A DNA stretch of 64,000 bases from Bacteroidales bacterium (GTDB lineage Bacteria; Bacteroidota; Bacteroidia; Bacteroidales; UBA932), in the NCBI GenBank assembly GCA_017549505.1, contig JAFYUS010000030.1, positions 62,001 through 126,000 of the forward strand, written 5' to 3'. Below, piece by piece: positions 45,607-57,251 of the stretch; the stretch's first letter is position 1; each line of letters begins with the position of its first letter. The notes below the pieces were generated by a model. That model saw nothing but the letters and a program-made list of their open reading frames with translations. It searched no databases and was not told the origin of the DNA. A program made the translations under genes and the position numbers.

Positions 45607-46704
45607 ATGGAGTTTGATCTCAGACCAAAGAAACTGGATGTATACATCGTCTCGAAGTTCATAACGACCTTCTTCGTGGCGTTGTTGCTGATCATCGGTA
45701 TCGTGATCATCTTCGACGTCAGCGAGAAGATCGACAATTTCGTCGAGAAGGAAGCCCCTCTGCGGGCCATCATCTTTGACTATTATGTGAACTTCGTTCC
45801 GTACTTCATGAACATGTTCAGTCCTCTGTTCGTGTTCATTACAGTTATCTTCTTTACATCGAAGATGGCCTCCGATACGGAGATCGTGGCCATCCTCTCC
45901 TGCGGAGTAAGTTTCCACAGGATGATGGTGCCGTACATATTCTCCGCGACCTTGATCGCTCTTTTCTCGTTGACTCTCAATCTGTTCGTGATTCCGGACT
46001 CCAATAAGGAACGAATAGCTTTCGAGACCAAATACGTCAAGGACAAGACAAAGAACGTCGGACGTAACGTCCATTATCAGATATCTCCGGGAGAATTCGC
46101 ATTTGCAGAGTCGTTCAGTTCATGGAACAACACTGCCTACCGCTTCACCCTTGAGAGGATAGAAGACAACAAGCTCATTTCAAAGATTACCGCTGAGACA
46201 GCTGTCTACGATACGACCAGGAACGTATGGCGTCTCAAGAAGTATTTCATCCGTGACTATAACGAAGACCTGACCGACAACATCCGCAGCGGAAAACAGC
46301 TTGACACTACCCTTGCCCTTTCCGTGAACGACTTCTACTGGAATCCCGAGTCTGTCGAAACATACAACTACTTCGAGCTGAACGAACTGATCGAACTACA
46401 GAAGATGAGGGGAGATGCCAATGTGAAATACTCGCTTATCCAGAAGAACAACCGTTTCGCACTTCCATTCTCCGCATTCATACTTACGATCATGGGAGTT
46501 GCCCTGTCATCGAAGAAGCGAAGGGGAGGAATCGGATGGAACATCGGAGCAGGTATCGCCCTGGCCTTCACCTACATCCTCTTCATGAAGTTCAGCGAGA
46601 TGTTCGTCTATACAGACACCCTCTCGCCAGCACTGGCCCTATGGCTCCCGAACATAGTCTTCACATTCATCGCCATCGTACTCTACCGCCTTGCTCCGAA
46701 GTAG
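45607..46704 (+). CDS. LptF/LptG-family (YjgP/YjgQ) permease
   Basis: The 365-residue inner-membrane protein has an N-terminal helix pair with the family start KKLDVYIVSKF. A third helix, a periplasmic beta-jellyroll region (about 150-270) and three C-terminal helices follow. LptF and LptG form the LptB2FG exporter that extracts lipopolysaccharide from the inner membrane. A second family member is the N-terminal half of the fusion at 50026-52488, so the two may be the two halves of one transporter. Which is F and which is G cannot be told. The gene overlaps nothing and is 5 bases after tgt. REP-like and hairpin elements follow it. Confidence 0.85.
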   Translation: MEFDLRPKKLDVYIVSKFITTFFVALLLIIGIVIIFDVSEKIDNFVEKEAPLRAIIFDYYVNFVPYFMNMFSPLFVFITVIFFTSKMASDTEIVAILSCGVSFHRMMVPYIFSATLIALFSLTLNLFVIPDSNKERIAFETKYVKDKTKNVGRNVHYQISPGEFAFAESFSSWNNTAYRFTLERIEDNKLISKITAETAVYDTTRNVWRLKKYFIRDYNEDLTDNIRSGKQLDTTLALSVNDFYWNPESVETYNYFELNELIELQKMRGDANVKYSLIQKNNRFALPFSAFILTIMGVALSSKKRRGGIGWNIGAGIALAFTYILFMKFSEMFVYTDTLSPALALWLPNIVFTFIAIVLYRLAPK

Positions 46705-49367: not shown

Positions 49368-50033
49368 TTAATCCATCATTATCAATGCTATGGACCTGTG
49401 GCTGAATTTCAGCTTGACATGGTCCTGAGAAGCCCTGTTAAGTGTAGCTTTCCACCAGTTGTCGAAGACAACCTCGTCTGTAGGCCATTCCAGACCCTCT
49501 GACTTTATCCGGAGGCTGTTGTCCGGACTGAAGATCGAAATCCTTCTGCCTTCCCCGCAGTCCACCTCACATGTGTCCGTCACTGCGAAGATGGTAGCAT
49601 GGTCTGAAACCATCTCCACATTGATCCCTCTGCCTTCCAGATCGTATGTCCTGGCATATTCCATCAGCAGGGATATGTTGCCGATTGTGTGGTCCTCTCT
49701 TTCTCCGGTCGCTCCGAGGATGTAGATCTGAGATATGTCTTCTACATTTTCAAGGGCCCATCTGAAGGCCTTTGTCTGGTCATTATGCTCCTGTTCGTCG
49801 ATCTGGACGATTATGTCGCTGTGCTTCTTGCGAAGCGACGGCGACAGCGAGTCCATATCACCGACCACCACATCAGGAAGCCTCTTTTCTCCGAAAATCG
49901 CTTCGCTGGCGCGGATGAATTTCTGAAGCGCTCCGTCGCAGCAGATGATGAAATCTGCCGTACGGACCAGATAGCGTGGATAGTCCGATTTCGGAAACCT
50001 TCCGTCGCAGATTATGACAACTGTCTTAAGCAT
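49368..50033 (-). CDS. thiamine pyrophosphokinase
   Basis: The 221-residue enzyme transfers pyrophosphate from ATP to thiamine. The family motifs are ICCDGAL (about 30-36), VVGDMDSLSP (about 56-65), DQTKAFRWAL (about 84-93) and GATGEREDHTIGN (about 106-118). The C-terminal beta domain ends with a thiamine-binding-like region. Its start overlaps the 3' end of the LptF/G-Fmt fusion by 8 bases, so translation is coupled. It is the last gene of the alaS group, cytosolic and of normal length. Confidence 0.9.
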   Translation of the reverse strand: MLKTVVIICDGRFPKSDYPRYLVRTADFIICCDGALQKFIRASEAIFGEKRLPDVVVGDMDSLSPSLRKKHSDIIVQIDEQEHNDQTKAFRWALENVEDISQIYILGATGEREDHTIGNISLLMEYARTYDLEGRGINVEMVSDHATIFAVTDTCEVDCGEGRRISIFSPDNSLRIKSEGLEWPTDEVVFDNWWKATLNRASQDHVKLKFSHRSIALIMMD

Positions 50034-52488
50034 GCTTTCCTGTTATCTGTGATGATGTTCCCTGAGTGGTTCCGTATGATTCCGGCTCTCTGAATCCGAT
50101 GAGGAAATCCTTCACGGCCATCTTCTTCTTGCCTGCCAGCTGGAGCTCGGTAACCGAGATCGCGCCGTCGGCTGTCGCGACGGCGAGATAAGTCTTTCCA
50201 TCGGAAAGCACCGTACCCGGTGCCGCACTCTCAAGCCCCGAAGCAGAAAGCATTGCAGCATATTCCTCTCCGGTAACCTTGAGGGTCCTGTATATCTTCA
50301 TCTGAAGGACCTTGTCGTCCTTTGTGAGTTCTGTGAATGCAGCAGGATATGGACTCAGACCGCGGATAAGGTTGTAGATGTCCTTGGTCTTGCCGTTCCA
50401 GTCTATGTGGCAGAGCTCGCGGGTTATCTTCGGTGCAGGTCTGAGGATCTCAGATCCCTGGATGAAACTTCTCTGTACGCGGAGCTCCACATTGTTCTCT
50501 ATGATTGCCTCGACTGTATTGACAACGAGTTTCGAACCGAGATCCATGAGCTTGTCGTGTACTTCTCCTACAGTTTCATCAGGTTCGATGCGGCAGTCAT
50601 ATCTGTACATGATGCCGCCGGTGTCCATACCATCGTCGATCATGAATGTCGTCACACCCGTAGTCTTGTCTCCGTTGATCACGGCCCAGTTGATCGGTGC
50701 TGCACCGCGGTACTGAGGGAGGAGGGCGGCGTGGAGGTTGAATGTGCCGAGTTTCGGCATTGACCATACGACCTTCGGAAGCATTCGGAATGCCACGACC
50801 ACGAACAGGTCTGCCTTCCATGCCTTCAGAGCTTCAAGGAACTCAGGATCCTTGAGCGAAAGCGGCTGAAGCACAGGGATGTTGTGTTCCACAGCATACT
50901 TCTTTACGGCGCTTTCGTTGACCTTGAGTCCTCGGCCGCTCGCCTTGTCGGCTACTGTCACCACTCCTACGATGTTATATCCGTTCTTTATGAGTTCGTC
51001 CAGAGGAGCCACCGCGAATTCCGGCGTACCCATGTAGACGATTCTTGTCTTCTTGAACATGTCCATGATCTTGGTCTTTATTTTTCTGAATCCGCTCTTT
51101 ATCGAATCCAGGTTGAAGAATGTCGAGTCGTTGATTGCCTTCCACGAAAGGAAGAGTCCGGTAGGGAAGAGCACGTAGCTGGAGAAGAATACTCCGAAGA
51201 CAGGTCCTACAGCTCCGTCTCTTGCCAGTTTGGTTCCGGCAATGTCGATCACATAGTACGCTACAAAGAAGAGTACGGATATGATCGCCGAGGCTCCAAG
51301 TCCTCCTTTTCGGATGATAGCTCCCAGAGGCGCACCGATGAAGAAGAAGATAAAGCAGGCGATTGCCAGTGCAAACTTCTTATAGATCTCGATGTCGATA
51401 AGCCTGAGGATATAAGTGTGGTGATATCTTTCCCTAGAATATGTGTTCAGTGTGTTTTCCAGCTCTTCTGCATGGGTCCTGGCCTTTCTTGCTCCTTCGA
51501 GTTCCTTCTCCAGAGTCTTCCACTTGTTGAGGCCCTCAGGTACGAAAGGAGTTGTCCTTACAGTCTTGGATGCTGTATCCAGCTGTGAATTGTATCTCAA
51601 TGACCTTGAATTTCCCAGAGATGCAATGTTCTTTTTCTTTCCCTCGGCATTTATGGTACCGATGGAATCCTCGCTTTCATGCAGCTGCTTGAGATTCATT
51701 GACTTGACCTGGTCGCCGAACCTGCTGGAATCGGATTTCTGGAACGAGTAGTTTTCCAGAGGGATGATCAGTTCCTGTCTTTTGAAGTCGATCTTCTGGA
51801 ACTGAAGGGTTGTGTCACGATATTTTCTGTTGTTGGTCTCCTCGTAGTTGGAACCGCTGAACATGATGAATGAAAGGTATGACTTGTCCTTTGACATCTT
51901 CATCATGGCTGAATCTGCAAGGGTAAGGCTTGTGTTGCCCTTGTTCTTCGTGTGGTTGTATACCATGACGCCGTGCATTATGCCGGTCTCGTCATTTCTT
52001 TCCTCCACACGGAGCATGTATCCTTCGATACCGTTGTAGAAAGTCTTGGTCGGAATCTTGATCTCGTCCTTTGTCTTTCCGATGTCTGCCCTGAGCTGAT
52101 AGATCTTGTTGTATGCTACCGGAATCAGGTCGTTCGATACGAAGAAGGCTCCGACACTGATGCCCAGACATACGACAGCAAGAGGAATCATCATTCTCTG
52201 AAGGGAGATACCTGCAGCCTTGACGGCCAGAAGCTCATTGTTCTCTCCCAGCTGTCCCATGGTCATCATGGCGGACAGAAGGGTGGACAAAGGAAGGGAC
52301 AGGGGAAGCATGGTGATGCAACCCCAGCCTAGGAATTCCATTATGACTTTGAAACTCAGACCCTTACCGACGAGTTCGTCGATATAGAGCCAGAGAAACT
52401 GCATCATCAGGATGAATACGACGACCAGCAGGATCGCTACAAACGGTCCTATGAACGACTTCAATATGAACTGGTCTAACTTCTTCAT
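50026..52488 (-). CDS. LptF/LptG-type permease fused to methionyl-tRNA formyltransferase
   Basis: A single 820-residue open frame joins two full proteins. Residues 1 to about 470 are a YjgP/YjgQ permease with three N-terminal helices, a large periplasmic domain and three C-terminal helices. From about 478, KTRIVYMGTPEFAV starts a complete Fmt with the formyl-THF site FNLHAALLPQYRGAAP and DDGMDTGG and the C-terminal domain. Fmt formylates initiator Met-tRNA in the cytosol, so the fusion would tether it to the inner membrane; the permease C-terminus is cytosolic, which makes this topologically possible. In-frame ATGs at 51066 and 51060 could also give a free Fmt. No stop or frameshift is seen at the joint. 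The start overlaps the alaS stop by one base. Confidence 0.88.
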   Translation of the reverse strand: MKKLDQFILKSFIGPFVAILLVVVFILMMQFLWLYIDELVGKGLSFKVIMEFLGWGCITMLPLSLPLSTLLSAMMTMGQLGENNELLAVKAAGISLQRMMIPLAVVCLGISVGAFFVSNDLIPVAYNKIYQLRADIGKTKDEIKIPTKTFYNGIEGYMLRVEERNDETGIMHGVMVYNHTKNKGNTSLTLADSAMMKMSKDKSYLSFIMFSGSNYEETNNRKYRDTTLQFQKIDFKRQELIIPLENYSFQKSDSSRFGDQVKSMNLKQLHESEDSIGTINAEGKKKNIASLGNSRSLRYNSQLDTASKTVRTTPFVPEGLNKWKTLEKELEGARKARTHAEELENTLNTYSRERYHHTYILRLIDIEIYKKFALAIACFIFFFIGAPLGAIIRKGGLGASAIISVLFFVAYYVIDIAGTKLARDGAVGPVFGVFFSSYVLFPTGLFLSWKAINDSTFFNLDSIKSGFRKIKTKIMDMFKKTRIVYMGTPEFAVAPLDELIKNGYNIVGVVTVADKASGRGLKVNESAVKKYAVEHNIPVLQPLSLKDPEFLEALKAWKADLFVVVAFRMLPKVVWSMPKLGTFNLHAALLPQYRGAAPINWAVINGDKTTGVTTFMIDDGMDTGGIMYRYDCRIEPDETVGEVHDKLMDLGSKLVVNTVEAIIENNVELRVQRSFIQGSEILRPAPKITRELCHIDWNGKTKDIYNLIRGLSPYPAAFTELTKDDKVLQMKIYRTLKVTGEEYAAMLSASGLESAAPGTVLSDGKTYLAVATADGAISVTELQLAGKKKMAVKDFLIGFREPESYGTTQGTSSQITGKHA

Positions 52489-55103
52489 TATGCAGTTGCG
52501 AGTTCAACCAATCTGGTTATTGCTGCGGAAAGACCGCCAAGGTCCTTTCCGCCGGCGGTAGCCAGACCTGGCTGTCCGCCGCCGCCGCCCATGATGAGCT
52601 TTGCAGCCTCACGAACGTCTGCTCCTGCATTCTTTCCGCCCTTCACAAGGTCCTCTGAGTACATGACGAGAAGCTGTGGCTTGCCTGCAAATTCGAAGGC
52701 AGCGACGATGGCGAACTTCTCTGTCTCCTTCTGGAGCATGAAGGCAGCGTTCTTGAGCATTGCAGGATCCATGCTGTAGTCCACGACTACGAGCTTTATG
52801 CCGTTCTGCTCCTTTGCAACTTCCTTGAAGCTGTTCTTGAGGGTAATGGTCTTCTCCTTTACGATCTCATCTATCTGCTTCTTGTAAGCCTCGTTCTCAT
52901 CAACCATCTTCTGGATTGCAGCTGCAAGGTCAGGAGCGTTGTTGAAGAATGCCTTTGCGATTCGGAGGGATGTTTCCATTCCGTCCACGATGATTTCTGC
53001 ATATACGCCGGTAGTTGCCTCGATGCGTCGTACTCCTGCTGCGATTGCTGACTCGGCTGTGATCTTGAAGAATCCGATCTGGCCGGTAGCGGCAGCATGT
53101 GTACCTCCACAGAGCTCGCATGACTGTCCGAACTTAACTACGCGTACCTTGTCGCCGTACTTCTCTCCGAAGAGTGCCATGGCGCCCATCTCCTGAGCTT
53201 CTTCCATGGTTGCGTTCCTGTTTTCATCGAGAGGGTAGTTCGCTCTGATGAGTGCGTTGACGCGCTTCTCGACTGCGTCGATCTGCTCGTCGGTGAGTTT
53301 CTCGAAGTGCGAGAAGTCGAAGCGGAAATATTTGTCACATACATATGAACCCTTCTGCTCCACATGTGTTCCGAGGATCTCGCGGAGCGCCTGGTGAAGG
53401 AGGTGGGTTGCGGTATGGTTGTTCTCGATCTGTTTTCTTCTTTCAGTATCTACATGGAGACTGAAGCTCTCAGTGCAGTCTGCAGGGATGCGCTCTGCAA
53501 CGTGGATGGTGAGGTTGTTCTCCTTGATTGTGTTGACGATGCTGATCTTCTCACCGCTCTCTGAAAGGATATATCCTGTATCACCTACCTGTCCTCCCAT
53601 CTCTGCGTAGAAAGGAGTACGCTCGAACACGAGCTGGTACATTGTCTTGTTCTTCGCCTTTACGGTACGATGACGTGTGAGCTGTACGCCTTCGAGTTCA
53701 GTGCAGTCATATCCGAGGAACTCGATGTTGTCGCAGTGTGCGAATTCTACCCAGTCGCCTGATTCGATTGCAGTTGCGTTACGTGCCCTGTCCTTCTGCT
53801 TCTGGAGCTCTACCTGGAATCCTTCGAGGTCGATCTTGTATCCCTTCTCTGAAGCGATGAGCTCGGAAAGGTCGATAGGGAAGCCGAATGTGTCGTAAAG
53901 TACGAATGCATCCTCTCCTGAGATCACCTTTGTCTCTGAAGACTTCGCCATGATGTTGTCCATCAGGCGGATACCTCTGTCAAGAGTGCGGAGGAAAGCC
54001 ATCTCCTCTTCCTTGATGACGCGCTCGATGAGGGTCTGCTGCTTTACGATCTCAGGATAGAACTCTCCCATGTCGTCCACGAGCTGTCCTACCAGACGGC
54101 AGAGGAAAGGCTCATTGAATCCGAGGAATGTATATCCGTAACGGACTGCACGACGGAGGATTCGACGGATCACATATCCTGCCTTTACATTCGAAGGCAG
54201 CTGGCCGTCTGCAATCGAGAAGCTGATTGCACGGATGTGGTCAGCGATCACACGCATGGCTACATCCTCTTCTGTAGTGACTCCGTACTTGTGTCCTGAA
54301 AGTTCCTCGATCTTTGAGATCATTCCTGTGAATACGTCTGTGTCATAGTTGGACTGCTTGCCCTGGAGAGCCATGCAGAGACGTTCGAATCCCATACCTG
54401 TGTCGACGTTCTTGTTAGGAAGGAGCTCGAGTTCTCCGTTTGCCTTGCGGTTGTACTGCATGAACACGTTGTTCCAGATCTCGATCACGAGATGGTGGTC
54501 CTTGTTCACGAGTGATGCTCCCGGAACGGCTGCCCTTTCCTCGTCGCTGCGGAGGTCGATGTGGATCTCCGAGCATGGTCCGCAAGGACCTGTATCGCCC
54601 ATTTCCCAGAAGTTGTCCTTCTTGTTTCCGAGGAGGATGCGGTCTTCAGGAAGATGTCTCTTCCATGCTTCCATGGCCTCGACGTCAAGCTGTGTGCCGT
54701 CTGCCTCAGAGCCCTCGAACACTGTAGCATAAAGTCTGTCCTTATCGAGCTTGTAAACCTCTGTGAGGAGTTCCCATGCCCAGTCGATGGCCTCGTTCTT
54801 GAAATAGTCGCCGAAGCTCCAGTTTCCGAGCATCTCGAACATTGTGTGGTGGTATGTATCGCGTCCGACCTCTTCAAGGTCGTTATGTTTTCCGCTTACG
54901 CGGAGACATTTCTGACTGTCTGCTACCCTCTTCCATTTTGCAGGGCTGTTTCCGAGGAACCAGTCCTTGAACTGATTCATTCCGGCATTGGTGAACATAA
55001 GTGTGGGGTCGTTCTTCACGACCATAGGTGCCGATGGCACGATCTGGTGACCCTTCGAAGCGAAGAAGTCCAGAAATGCTTTTCTGATTTCTTTGGAAGT
55101 CAT
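52488..55103 (-). CDS. alaS: alanyl-tRNA synthetase
   Basis: The 871-residue class II synthetase charges tRNA-Ala. The start [19 protein letters not shown], the motif 2 region [16 protein letters not shown] (about 86-101) and the editing-domain zinc ligands HTATHLLH and CELCGGTH are present. The C-terminal [14 protein letters not shown] block is also seen. It is cytosolic and of normal length. It leads a tightly packed group: its stop overlaps the start of the LptF/G-Fmt fusion (TAATG), and that gene overlaps thiamine pyrophosphokinase. It is divergent from the M23 peptidase genes. Confidence 0.97.
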
Positions 55104-55281: not shown

Positions 55282-56304
55282 ATGTCCAAAAGTAAAAACT
55301 ATATTTTCAATGATCAGACGCTTATGTATGAGATACGTAAGCGCTCGAAGCTGTCGCGTATAATCAAGTCCGCGACTGTCTTTGCTGCAAGTCTGGGCAT
55401 GGCTGTTCTTTATTTCTGGCTGTATACGTCTGTCTTCGGTCTGGAACTGCCGAAGACTGCGCTCCTGAAGAAGCAGAATGCGGAGTGGTGCTCGAAGATG
55501 GAGGTCATGAACAGACAGTTGGACGGTTACGAGGATGTCCTCGCTTCCCTTCAGATGAGGGATGACGACATATATAGGTCGATTTTCGGTATGCATGAGA
55601 TACCTGCGGAGGTCCGCAATGCCGGCTTCGGTGGTGTAAACAGATATGCCCACCTTGAGGGCGTAGACCAAGGCGGTCTGCTCAAGAGCACGACCTTGAG
55701 GATGGATATCCTTACAAAGAAGTCCTATGTCCAGAGCAAGTCGTTCGATGAAGTGGCCCAGCTTTCCAGAAGGGCCGGAGACATGGCTTCATGCATTCCG
55801 GCAATTCCTCCGATAAATCCTGATCCGACAAAATACCGTCTTTCCAGCAGCTTCGGATACAGGACCGACCCTGTGTACGGAAGATCTGCACGCCATACCG
55901 GTGTTGACTTCGCCATGAAGCCGGGCAACCCGATCTACTCCACAGGCGACGGTGTAGTGGAAAGCGTGAAGTTCGAATTCTTCGGATATGGAAACCAGGT
56001 CGTGATCGACCACGGTTTCGGATATAAGACCAGGTATGCCCATCTGAGGAACATCGGAGTCGTGGAAGGAATGAAGGTGAAGAGGGGAGAGTGCATCGGA
56101 GAAAGCGGAAATTCCGGAAAATCGACAGGTCCTCATCTCCATTACGAGGTCATCTACAAGGGCAGTCCGGTCAATCCGAGCAATTATTACGACCTGACGA
56201 TAACGACGGAGGAGTATGCAACCATGGTTCAGAATACGGCGGACATGTCGGAAAAGCTGACTCTCCACCCTTCGCACAGGCCTAAATCCCAGACCCGCTC
56301 ATGA
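55282..56304 (+). CDS. M23 family metallopeptidase, membrane-anchored (first of two)
   Basis: The 340-residue protein has a cytosolic basic start, one membrane helix (about 35-55, SLGMAVLYFWLYTSVFGL), a short coiled region and a C-terminal LytM domain in the periplasm. The zinc and catalytic residues are in HTGVDF (about 211), YAHL and HLHYEV (about 293). The family cuts peptide cross-links in peptidoglycan. It overlaps the next M23 gene by 4 bases (ATGA). The two proteins share the phrase RDDDIY and the same layout, so they arose by duplication. A leaderless-type promoter precedes it. Confidence 0.87.
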   Translation: MSKSKNYIFNDQTLMYEIRKRSKLSRIIKSATVFAASLGMAVLYFWLYTSVFGLELPKTALLKKQNAEWCSKMEVMNRQLDGYEDVLASLQMRDDDIYRSIFGMHEIPAEVRNAGFGGVNRYAHLEGVDQGGLLKSTTLRMDILTKKSYVQSKSFDEVAQLSRRAGDMASCIPAIPPINPDPTKYRLSSSFGYRTDPVYGRSARHTGVDFAMKPGNPIYSTGDGVVESVKFEFFGYGNQVVIDHGFGYKTRYAHLRNIGVVEGMKVKRGECIGESGNSGKSTGPHLHYEVIYKGSPVNPSNYYDLTITTEEYATMVQNTADMSEKLTLHPSHRPKSQTRS

Positions 56305-57251
56305 GTCGCAGATACATATTCGACAAGGACGGAATAAGGTTCAGAAGAAAGAAGACATCAGTGTGGACTGTCGTGCGCAGGATACTGATGTTTTTTGTCG
56401 CATCCTTATCTCTGGCTGTGGTCTATTATGTGATTTTCTCTCTTGTCTTCAGTACGGACGAAGAGAAGAAGCTAAGGCAGGAGAACAGGATGTATGCCAG
56501 GGAATACCCGGAACTGGAAAGGAAGGAACAGCTTCTGTCAGATGTGGTGGACGGTCTCATGGTCAGGGACGACGATATCTATTCAGAGATATTCCACACC
56601 TCGGCTCCGGACGTGAATCCTCTTTCATCCATCGATTTCCTTTCGGGATATGATTCCATTCCTGACCACGATATAGTGCTCCGTTCAGCGGCCAAGCTGG
56701 ACCTGGCCGGCGCAAGCGCGGCCAGAGTGGAAGAGAATTTCCGGAGGATAGCGCAGGTGCTCGGAGAAGAGGGATATTCCATCCCTCCGATGACCAATCC
56801 GCTGAAGAACTACTCGTTCGCGCAGACTGGCGCATCGACGGGAAGCAGAATGAATCCTTTCTATAAAGTGTCCATGCAGCATAACGGACTGGATATGATA
56901 GCTCCTTCCGGAGAGCCTGTATATGCGGCTGCAGACGGAACGGTAAGCAATGTGATACGTTCCCGCAAGGGCCTGGGAAATGTGGTCGAGATCGATCATG
57001 GCAACGGATACATGACGCGATACGGCCATCTTGCGGACGTCGAAGTCCGCAAGGGCCGTAAGCTCACGAAGGGAACGCGCATAGGATATGTGGGAGTGTC
57101 GGGCAACTCGTTCGCCCCTCATCTCCATTATGAGGTGATAAAGGACACACTGGTCATGGACCCTGTGAACTACATGTTCGCTTCCGTGACGCCAGAAGAA
57201 TATGTAAACATGCTGGTCATGTCAGTGATGACCGGTCAGTCAATGGATTGA
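56301..57251 (+). CDS. M23 family metallopeptidase, membrane-anchored (second of two)
   Basis: The 316-residue paralogue of the preceding protein has a membrane helix (about 29-51, ILMFFVASLSLAVVYYVIF), a coiled-coil region and a LytM domain. Zinc and catalytic residues are intact in HNGLDM (about 195), RYGHL and HLHYEV (about 275). It is expected to act on peptidoglycan in the periplasm during growth or division. It overlaps the upstream gene by 4 bases and is followed after 60 bases by a MerR-type regulator gene. Confidence 0.87.
   Translation: MSRRYIFDKDGIRFRRKKTSVWTVVRRILMFFVASLSLAVVYYVIFSLVFSTDEEKKLRQENRMYAREYPELERKEQLLSDVVDGLMVRDDDIYSEIFHTSAPDVNPLSSIDFLSGYDSIPDHDIVLRSAAKLDLAGASAARVEENFRRIAQVLGEEGYSIPPMTNPLKNYSFAQTGASTGSRMNPFYKVSMQHNGLDMIAPSGEPVYAAADGTVSNVIRSRKGLGNVVEIDHGNGYMTRYGHLADVEVRKGRKLTKGTRIGYVGVSGNSFAPHLHYEVIKDTLVMDPVNYMFASVTPEEYVNMLVMSVMTGQSMD

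Follow-up and report, generated by a model that had tools for sequence, protein, structure and literature searches.

A single gene in the window, the whole 64,000-nucleotide stretch of DNA analysed here, encodes both a complete LptF/LptG-type permease and a complete methionyl-tRNA formyltransferase (Fmt). The two halves share one open frame, the arrangement is conserved across the genus, and it supplies the only Fmt above the family cut-off in the genomes examined. In a lineage of uncultured gut Bacteroidales, one gene thus houses two core functions that have nothing to do with each other, the export of LPS to the outer membrane and the formylation of initiator tRNA, and this occurs recurrently within the family. 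The gene is a genuine, conserved LptF-Fmt fusion, probably derived from adjacent genes, and, judging from the comparison of related loci, it probably yields a tethered Fmt together with a second, free Fmt begun at codon 475. What is new here is that the joint looks like an internal translation start.

Architecture of the fused gene

The frame is read on the minus strand from an ATG at 52488 to a stop ending at 50026, and runs through 820 codons without an internal stop. The initial annotation had described it as a single uninterrupted frame holding a complete LptF/LptG permease and a complete Fmt, and the open reading frame, Pfam and NCBIfam all agree with that description. On the fused protein, Pfam places PF03739 at residues 7-450, PF00551 at 482-658 and PF02911 at 687-799, the PF03739 (LptF/LptG) profile being matched over positions 2-353 of its 353 (231.2 bits, with a gathering score of 27.9). 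The permease half lies under the NCBIfam equivalog cut-offs of both LptF and LptG, and is named LptF-type solely because TIGR04407 (LptF) gives its best NCBIfam score, 152.8 bits against a cut-off of 230. The Fmt half passes the fmt equivalog TIGR00460 (239.7 bits, cut-off 201.5) and aligns almost end to end with 1fmt. Its residues N584, H586 and D622, invariant in 47 aligned sequences, align with the Asn, His and Asp of 1fmt that we take to be the catalytic residues of E. coli Fmt. Coordinates are collected in Table 1.

Table 1. Features of the lptF-fmt locus and its surroundings, in positions of the window
Feature	Position	Strand	Basis
lptF-fmt fused frame, 820 codons and stop	50026..52488	-	ORF, Pfam, NCBIfam
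Permease part, LptF-type, residues 1-455	51124..52488	-	PF03739 at 7-450
Linker, Lys/Arg-rich, residues 456-481	51046..51123	-	Junction comparison across loci
Eight codons 5' of the candidate internal ATG	51067..51090	-	Genus-wide synonymous-A enrichment and weak folding of the equivalent stretch
Candidate internal start ATG, codon 475	51064..51066	-	Met in 31/54 dereplicated genus loci
Further in-frame ATG, codon 477	51058..51060	-	Sequence
Fmt part, residues 482-820	50029..51045	-	TIGR00460 over cut-off; matches 1fmt
alaS, upstream of lptF-fmt, 1-base overlap	52488..55103	-	
Thiamine pyrophosphokinase gene, downstream of lptF-fmt, 8-base overlap	49368..50033	-	
LptG-like second permease, unfused	45607..46704	+	Pfam, NCBIfam

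The membrane topology of the permease bears on where the attached enzyme would lie. A Kyte-Doolittle scan marks five regions, near residues 16-34, 92-122, 368-392, 391-414 and 430-448, and the accessible portion of PMC5548808 gives LptF and LptG six membrane segments each. The linker carries a net charge of +4 to +7 across 54 loci. A cytosolic joint would agree both with the six-segment LptF/LptG structures (PMC5548808, in the same portion) and with the positive linker.

The overlaps with the flanking genes are present as first reported. The alaS stop shares one base with the lptF-fmt start (TAATG), and the thiamine pyrophosphokinase gene, starting at 50033, overlaps the end of lptF-fmt by eight bases; the three genes form a probable operon. 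An LptG-like permease gene lies 3.3 kb away from lptF-fmt. Just past alaS, at 55282-57251 of the window, stand two similar, adjacent plus-strand genes with a four-base overlap, the second of which encodes an M23 peptidase domain. In seven other members of the genus (G026, G019, G041, G032, G017, G048 and G011) the match to the fused protein breaks near 722-757 and resumes near 750-758 without a change of frame, the frame being longer there, which suggests that the Fmt C-terminal domain carries an insertion whose length varies.

Distribution and origin of the fusion

The genome of the window belongs, by the names given to its close matches, to Candidatus Cryptobacteroides, in the family that we take to be UBA932 of GTDB. 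It consists of 69 contigs, is 78% complete and holds one copy of the fused gene. Although such a genome could in principle harbour an assembly or binning artefact, the chance of this is negligible and the explanation is ruled out here, for the same stop-free fusion, spanning both halves, recurs in assemblies deposited separately and, counting the genome of the window, in 55 of the 61 genomes of the genus. The earlier statement that the joint has no stop or frameshift holds for the window, where the frame is open throughout, and for all 55 of these genomes. A plasmid origin was likewise rejected: none of 303 matching plasmid records covers 80% of the protein, and a search of the junction DNA against plasmid sequences gave no match.

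Fmt was found over its cut-off in 56 of the 61 genus genomes. The match is the fused gene in 55 of them, and in the remaining one, G024, it adjoins an LptF half whose frame is broken. The genomes without a full fusion match are, besides G024, G004 and G010, which hold fragments, and G014, G045 and G046, which have none over the cut-off and of which only G046 is more than 90% complete. At the G024 locus (L193) the LptF half is frame-broken in its middle part and the Fmt half is intact; that genome is 58% complete, and an assembly error is a possible cause of the break. Another assembly, G058, contains two fused copies, about 76% and 73% identical to the window's, possibly from mixed strains. 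No free-standing Fmt over the TIGR00460 cut-off was found outside the fused gene in the genus genomes; the weaker matches elsewhere (43-70 bits, in frames of 191-525 amino acids, with partial profile coverage) are probably PurN and other formyltransferases. The fused copy is also the only Fmt over the cut-off in all 19 genomes chosen from nine genera. Peptide deformylase was found in every one of the 61 genus genomes, and, in a separate count, 12 of 13 genomes had two permeases.

The search of Bacteroidota that the initial annotation proposed recovered the fusion across the genus and the family and, among the matches listed, nowhere outside the family. In the family sample (149 genomes, 25 genera) it also occurs in g2, g3, g5, g6, g15, g16, g17 and g23, and at least 50 of the 149 genomes are fused among the matches listed, two of them cut by contig ends. 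G138 and G150 have a stop separating the halves, despite the 820-residue open frame first assigned to them. No match to both halves appears among the matches listed for the 291 genomes of the order sample (295 in all) that lie outside the family, nor among those listed for 197 further Bacteroidota in the phylum sample; the listed matches suffice for this negative because spanning matches would rank first. Stop-free fusions were counted from spanning matches without stops or by scripted classification of loci. Both halves share one stop-free frame in 142 of 178 fetched loci, far beyond chance; the script placed the remainder as 30 split, 4 with lptF and no fmt match (judged within the fetched stretch) and 2 without a usable lptF match, the 178 being overlapping sets in which some species appear twice.

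Split relatives in the window's family have lptF and fmt adjacent or overlapping. Where the fmt ATG is clear (25 of 30 split loci), it lies between 20 bases after (+20) and 31 bases before (-31) the end of the lptF stop, and in g12, g19 and g22 fmt overlaps the end of lptF by 26-31 nt in a different frame. The split loci L151 (g11), L157 (g23), L160 and L161 (g14) and L166 (g25) have no fmt ATG near the first core residues, and may use other fmt start codons. In three other Bacteroidales families (f93, f82 and f24; loci L187-L192) the order is lptF, then ribBA, then fmt, with two more genes in between in f24; ribBA was identified by Pfam on one copy (L190), the remaining copies being alike at the N-terminus. 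Since this order is common to three families, lptF and fmt already lay close together when the fusions took place. A tree of 78 loci requires the label to switch between fused and split three times, and all three switches are forced by branches with good support; the tree used 18 of the 118 fused genus loci and omitted 14 other labelled loci (partial, duplicate or with one half missing) as well as L002 and L179-L186, which were never labelled. All three may have been gains, or there may have been fewer gains together with some losses. The most economical history places one fusion in the ancestor of the window's genus and its relatives, another in the g2/g6 lineage and one in g23.

A course of events can be proposed in which ribBA was lost from between the two genes in the family ancestor, so that lptF and fmt would have become neighbours, and in which the fmt start came to sit near or within the 3' end of lptF. 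A single frame would then have arisen, probably three times, either through small indels or because the stop of lptF was lost, and the former fmt start would survive as an internal start of the fused gene; some lineages would afterwards have lost it and come to depend on the tethered enzyme. The fusion would persist mainly because it is hard to undo. In the 30 split loci, LptF tails extend at least 24 codons beyond residue 455, and codon 475 lies only 20 beyond it. A stop before codon 475 would leave an LptF tail shorter than those of the split relatives, and a stop after it would kill Fmt. A stop-free linker was for its part rejected as proof of selection on the fusion, since stops there would harm LptF anyway.

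This history also bears on the suggestion, made in the initial annotation, that through the fusion translation initiation would be bound to the envelope machinery. Functional coupling, in which Fmt tethered to the LPS exporter would link translation initiation to envelope synthesis, could appeal to the repeated emergence of the fused state within a single family and to its maintenance in 55 of the 61 genus genomes. However, gene adjacency explains the recurrence, and an internal start would give soluble Fmt too. With most of the genes expected to yield the soluble enzyme as well, and with at least three changes of state from an adjacent pair whose persistence a drift-and-ratchet origin explains, the suggestion is unsupported, as is any regulation that would connect the export of LPS with the initiation of translation, and coupling of this kind is very improbable. 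Some benefit of tethering is possible.

A candidate translation start at the joint

In-frame ATGs had been pointed out at 51066 and 51060, with the suggestion that they could free Fmt. Both are present, as codons 475 and 477, and the suggestion gains support from comparative signals in ATG frequency, synonymous A and mRNA folding. When genus loci were dereplicated at 90% identity, 44 of 54 had an ATG within 12 codons before K479, a frequency matched by none of 61 other windows of the gene with about the same variability; residue 475 itself is Met in 31 of the 54. The eight codons before the ATG carry a synonymous A excess (above expectation from the gene's own codon usage) of 1.45, compared with -0.23 before 1132 other in-frame ATGs, and none of 711 null windows attains it, the highest reaching 1.17. 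Per codon this excess is +0.188, much like the +0.183 of the eight codons with which the fused gene ends, ahead of the start of the thiamine pyrophosphokinase gene. Predicted mRNA folding is weakest at the ATG, with -3.8 kcal/mol compared to -5.1 where the gene itself starts and -9.9 at places chosen at random, and in a comparison with synonymous resamples it is -3.61 against -5.98 kcal/mol (difference +2.4, t 8.3, n = 44).

The signals were also followed in other loci. In g6, which belongs to a separate fusion clade, 9 of 10 loci have their ATG 17-20 codons ahead of K479, and the A and folding signals shift along with it, folding at its own ATG giving t 7.0 (n = 10). Fused loci without an ATG give a folding t of 1.6 in 10 genus loci and also 1.6 in 8 loci of other genera, with at most 1.8 and 2.0, respectively, at nearby points, and a pooled upstream A excess of z 1.7 at most. 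The ATG is absent from 10 of the 54 genus loci, yet in these the A excess averages +0.83 (against +0.19 for the eight from other genera), so that the A signal is tied only partly to the ATG. At the true fmt starts of 25 split relatives, folding is as weak as at the junction ATG, with a mean of -3.58 kcal/mol against -8.67 at random lptF places, and the A excess, +0.48, is smaller than that of the junction. The loci are related and t values shrink with stricter dereplication; the signals persist at n = 14 (4.5 for A excess, 2.8 for folding) and at n = 8 (6.1 and 3.2), and folding is not significant at n = 4 (1.7). Across the genus, fourfold sites have almost reached saturation (identity 0.352, with 0.274 expected), which makes a relic of the time before fusion an unlikely source of the signals.

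A promoter of the Bacteroides type inside lptF was considered and rejected, as its consensus TTG-N17..22-TAnnTTTG occurs in none of 54 loci over the 400 nt that precede the joint. By start-context score the junction ATG stands out only moderately, averaging the 89th percentile of internal ATGs and lying at or above the 95th in 30 of 74 loci, and the gene's own start scores the same on average; the matrix is partly confounded by lysine codons, and the synonymous tests were relied on instead. According to the accessible part of PMC6847099, Bacteroidota initiate without Shine-Dalgarno sequences, with A favoured at certain upstream positions and with unstructured initiation regions, and the A-rich, unstructured region of the junction ATG is of the kind described there.

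Most of these genes, then, probably make both the fusion and free Fmt. The full-length product would be an LptF subunit bearing Fmt on its cytosolic C-terminus, and ribosomes would also initiate at codon 475 (the ATG at 51066) and so release free Fmt from the same mRNA. It is unlikely that only one 820-residue bifunctional membrane protein is made, with Met475 and Met477 as ordinary residues of an amphipathic linker. The occurrence of another residue at position 475 in 23 of the 54 loci would be in keeping with a single product, as would some fused relatives that lack ATG, GTG or TTG near the joint and have no other Fmt over the cut-off, in which the tethered enzyme seems to be enough; but in two fusion clades the excess of synonymous A and the lack of mRNA folding both centre on the ATG, and are weak where it is missing, which speaks against a single product, and amino-acid needs alone leave the synonymous choice unexplained.

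Lineages without a nearby start and related systems

Among the 142 fused loci, an ATG lies within 12 codons before K479 in 108, at 13-25 codons in 23 and at 26-59 in 6, and five have none within 59. Locus L041, from the 99% complete genome G076, lacks ATG, GTG and TTG alike over 59 codons, and L175 (G062) and L016/L136 (L016 from G021, 95% complete) have none of the three within 25; in each of these genomes the fused frame is the only Fmt over the cut-off. With no nearby start and no other such enzyme, Fmt would have to function as part of the permease protein, barring the use of a non-standard start or cleavage by a protease. The tethered Fmt of these lineages is thus probably active, and its activity there shows tolerance of the attachment, not coupling. 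Proteolytic cutting of the linker after translation would free Fmt and account for the lineages without a nearby start codon, and the linker is variable and charged; no conserved cleavage motif was seen by eye in the junction listing, however, and this explanation is very improbable.

The same lineages weigh on how the fused product of the window's genus is to be regarded. It may be a harmless by-product, the free enzyme doing the work and re-splitting being hard, a proposition with little short of an even chance. The internal-start signals are in accord with it, as are the repeated origin from adjacent genes and the split LptF tails, which in 30 loci never fall below 24 codons past residue 455, so that simple stops are barred. 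Against it, the fused gene is the sole Fmt over the cut-off in lineages that have no start nearby, and the tethered form is probably active in them. With somewhat less than an even chance, in several lineages the start may have decayed so that every formylated initiator tRNA comes from an Fmt that is itself a domain of the inner-membrane LPS exporter, those that kept the start being dual-output intermediates. If true, split genes, genes with dual output and an initiator-tRNA formylase obligatorily bound to the membrane would form the successive steps of a natural series; the lineages without a nearby start provide in any case a natural test of a solely membrane-tethered Fmt.

In summary, the fusion is real, conserved and recurrent, and in the window's genus is best read, on comparative sequence grounds, as a two-product gene. 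It would exemplify a path by which fusion preserves the start of the downstream gene as an internal start, with one protein annotated and probably two made. An LptF-Fmt fusion was not found described in the open-licence literature, judged by titles or the beginnings of abstracts, and the word formyltransferase is absent from the main text of PMC3711429 in its accessible portion.

Several known systems resemble parts of this arrangement. The permease half is like the LptF/LptG permeases of the LptB2FG exporter in its full-length PF03739 match and in having an LptG-like second permease encoded nearby, and differs in falling below both equivalog cut-offs and in its C-terminal fusion to a translation-initiation enzyme. 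The other half resembles E. coli Fmt (1fmt/2fmt), being over the equivalog cut-off with a near end-to-end match to 1fmt, but here the enzyme has an N-terminal membrane protein or is made from a candidate internal start. Translationally coupled overlapping gene pairs, as described in the accessible parts of PMC12548453 and PMC10666635, have their likeness in the split relatives, whose fmt starts lie near or inside the end of lptF; in the fused gene the lptF stop is gone, which makes reinitiation after termination at the joint impossible. In infB/IF2, clpA and speA, in-frame internal starts give more than one product per frame (PMC13245402, in the portion available). The fused gene would likewise make several products from one frame via a further start codon, but its short product would be a complete separate enzyme, begun at what was probably the start of a once-separate gene.
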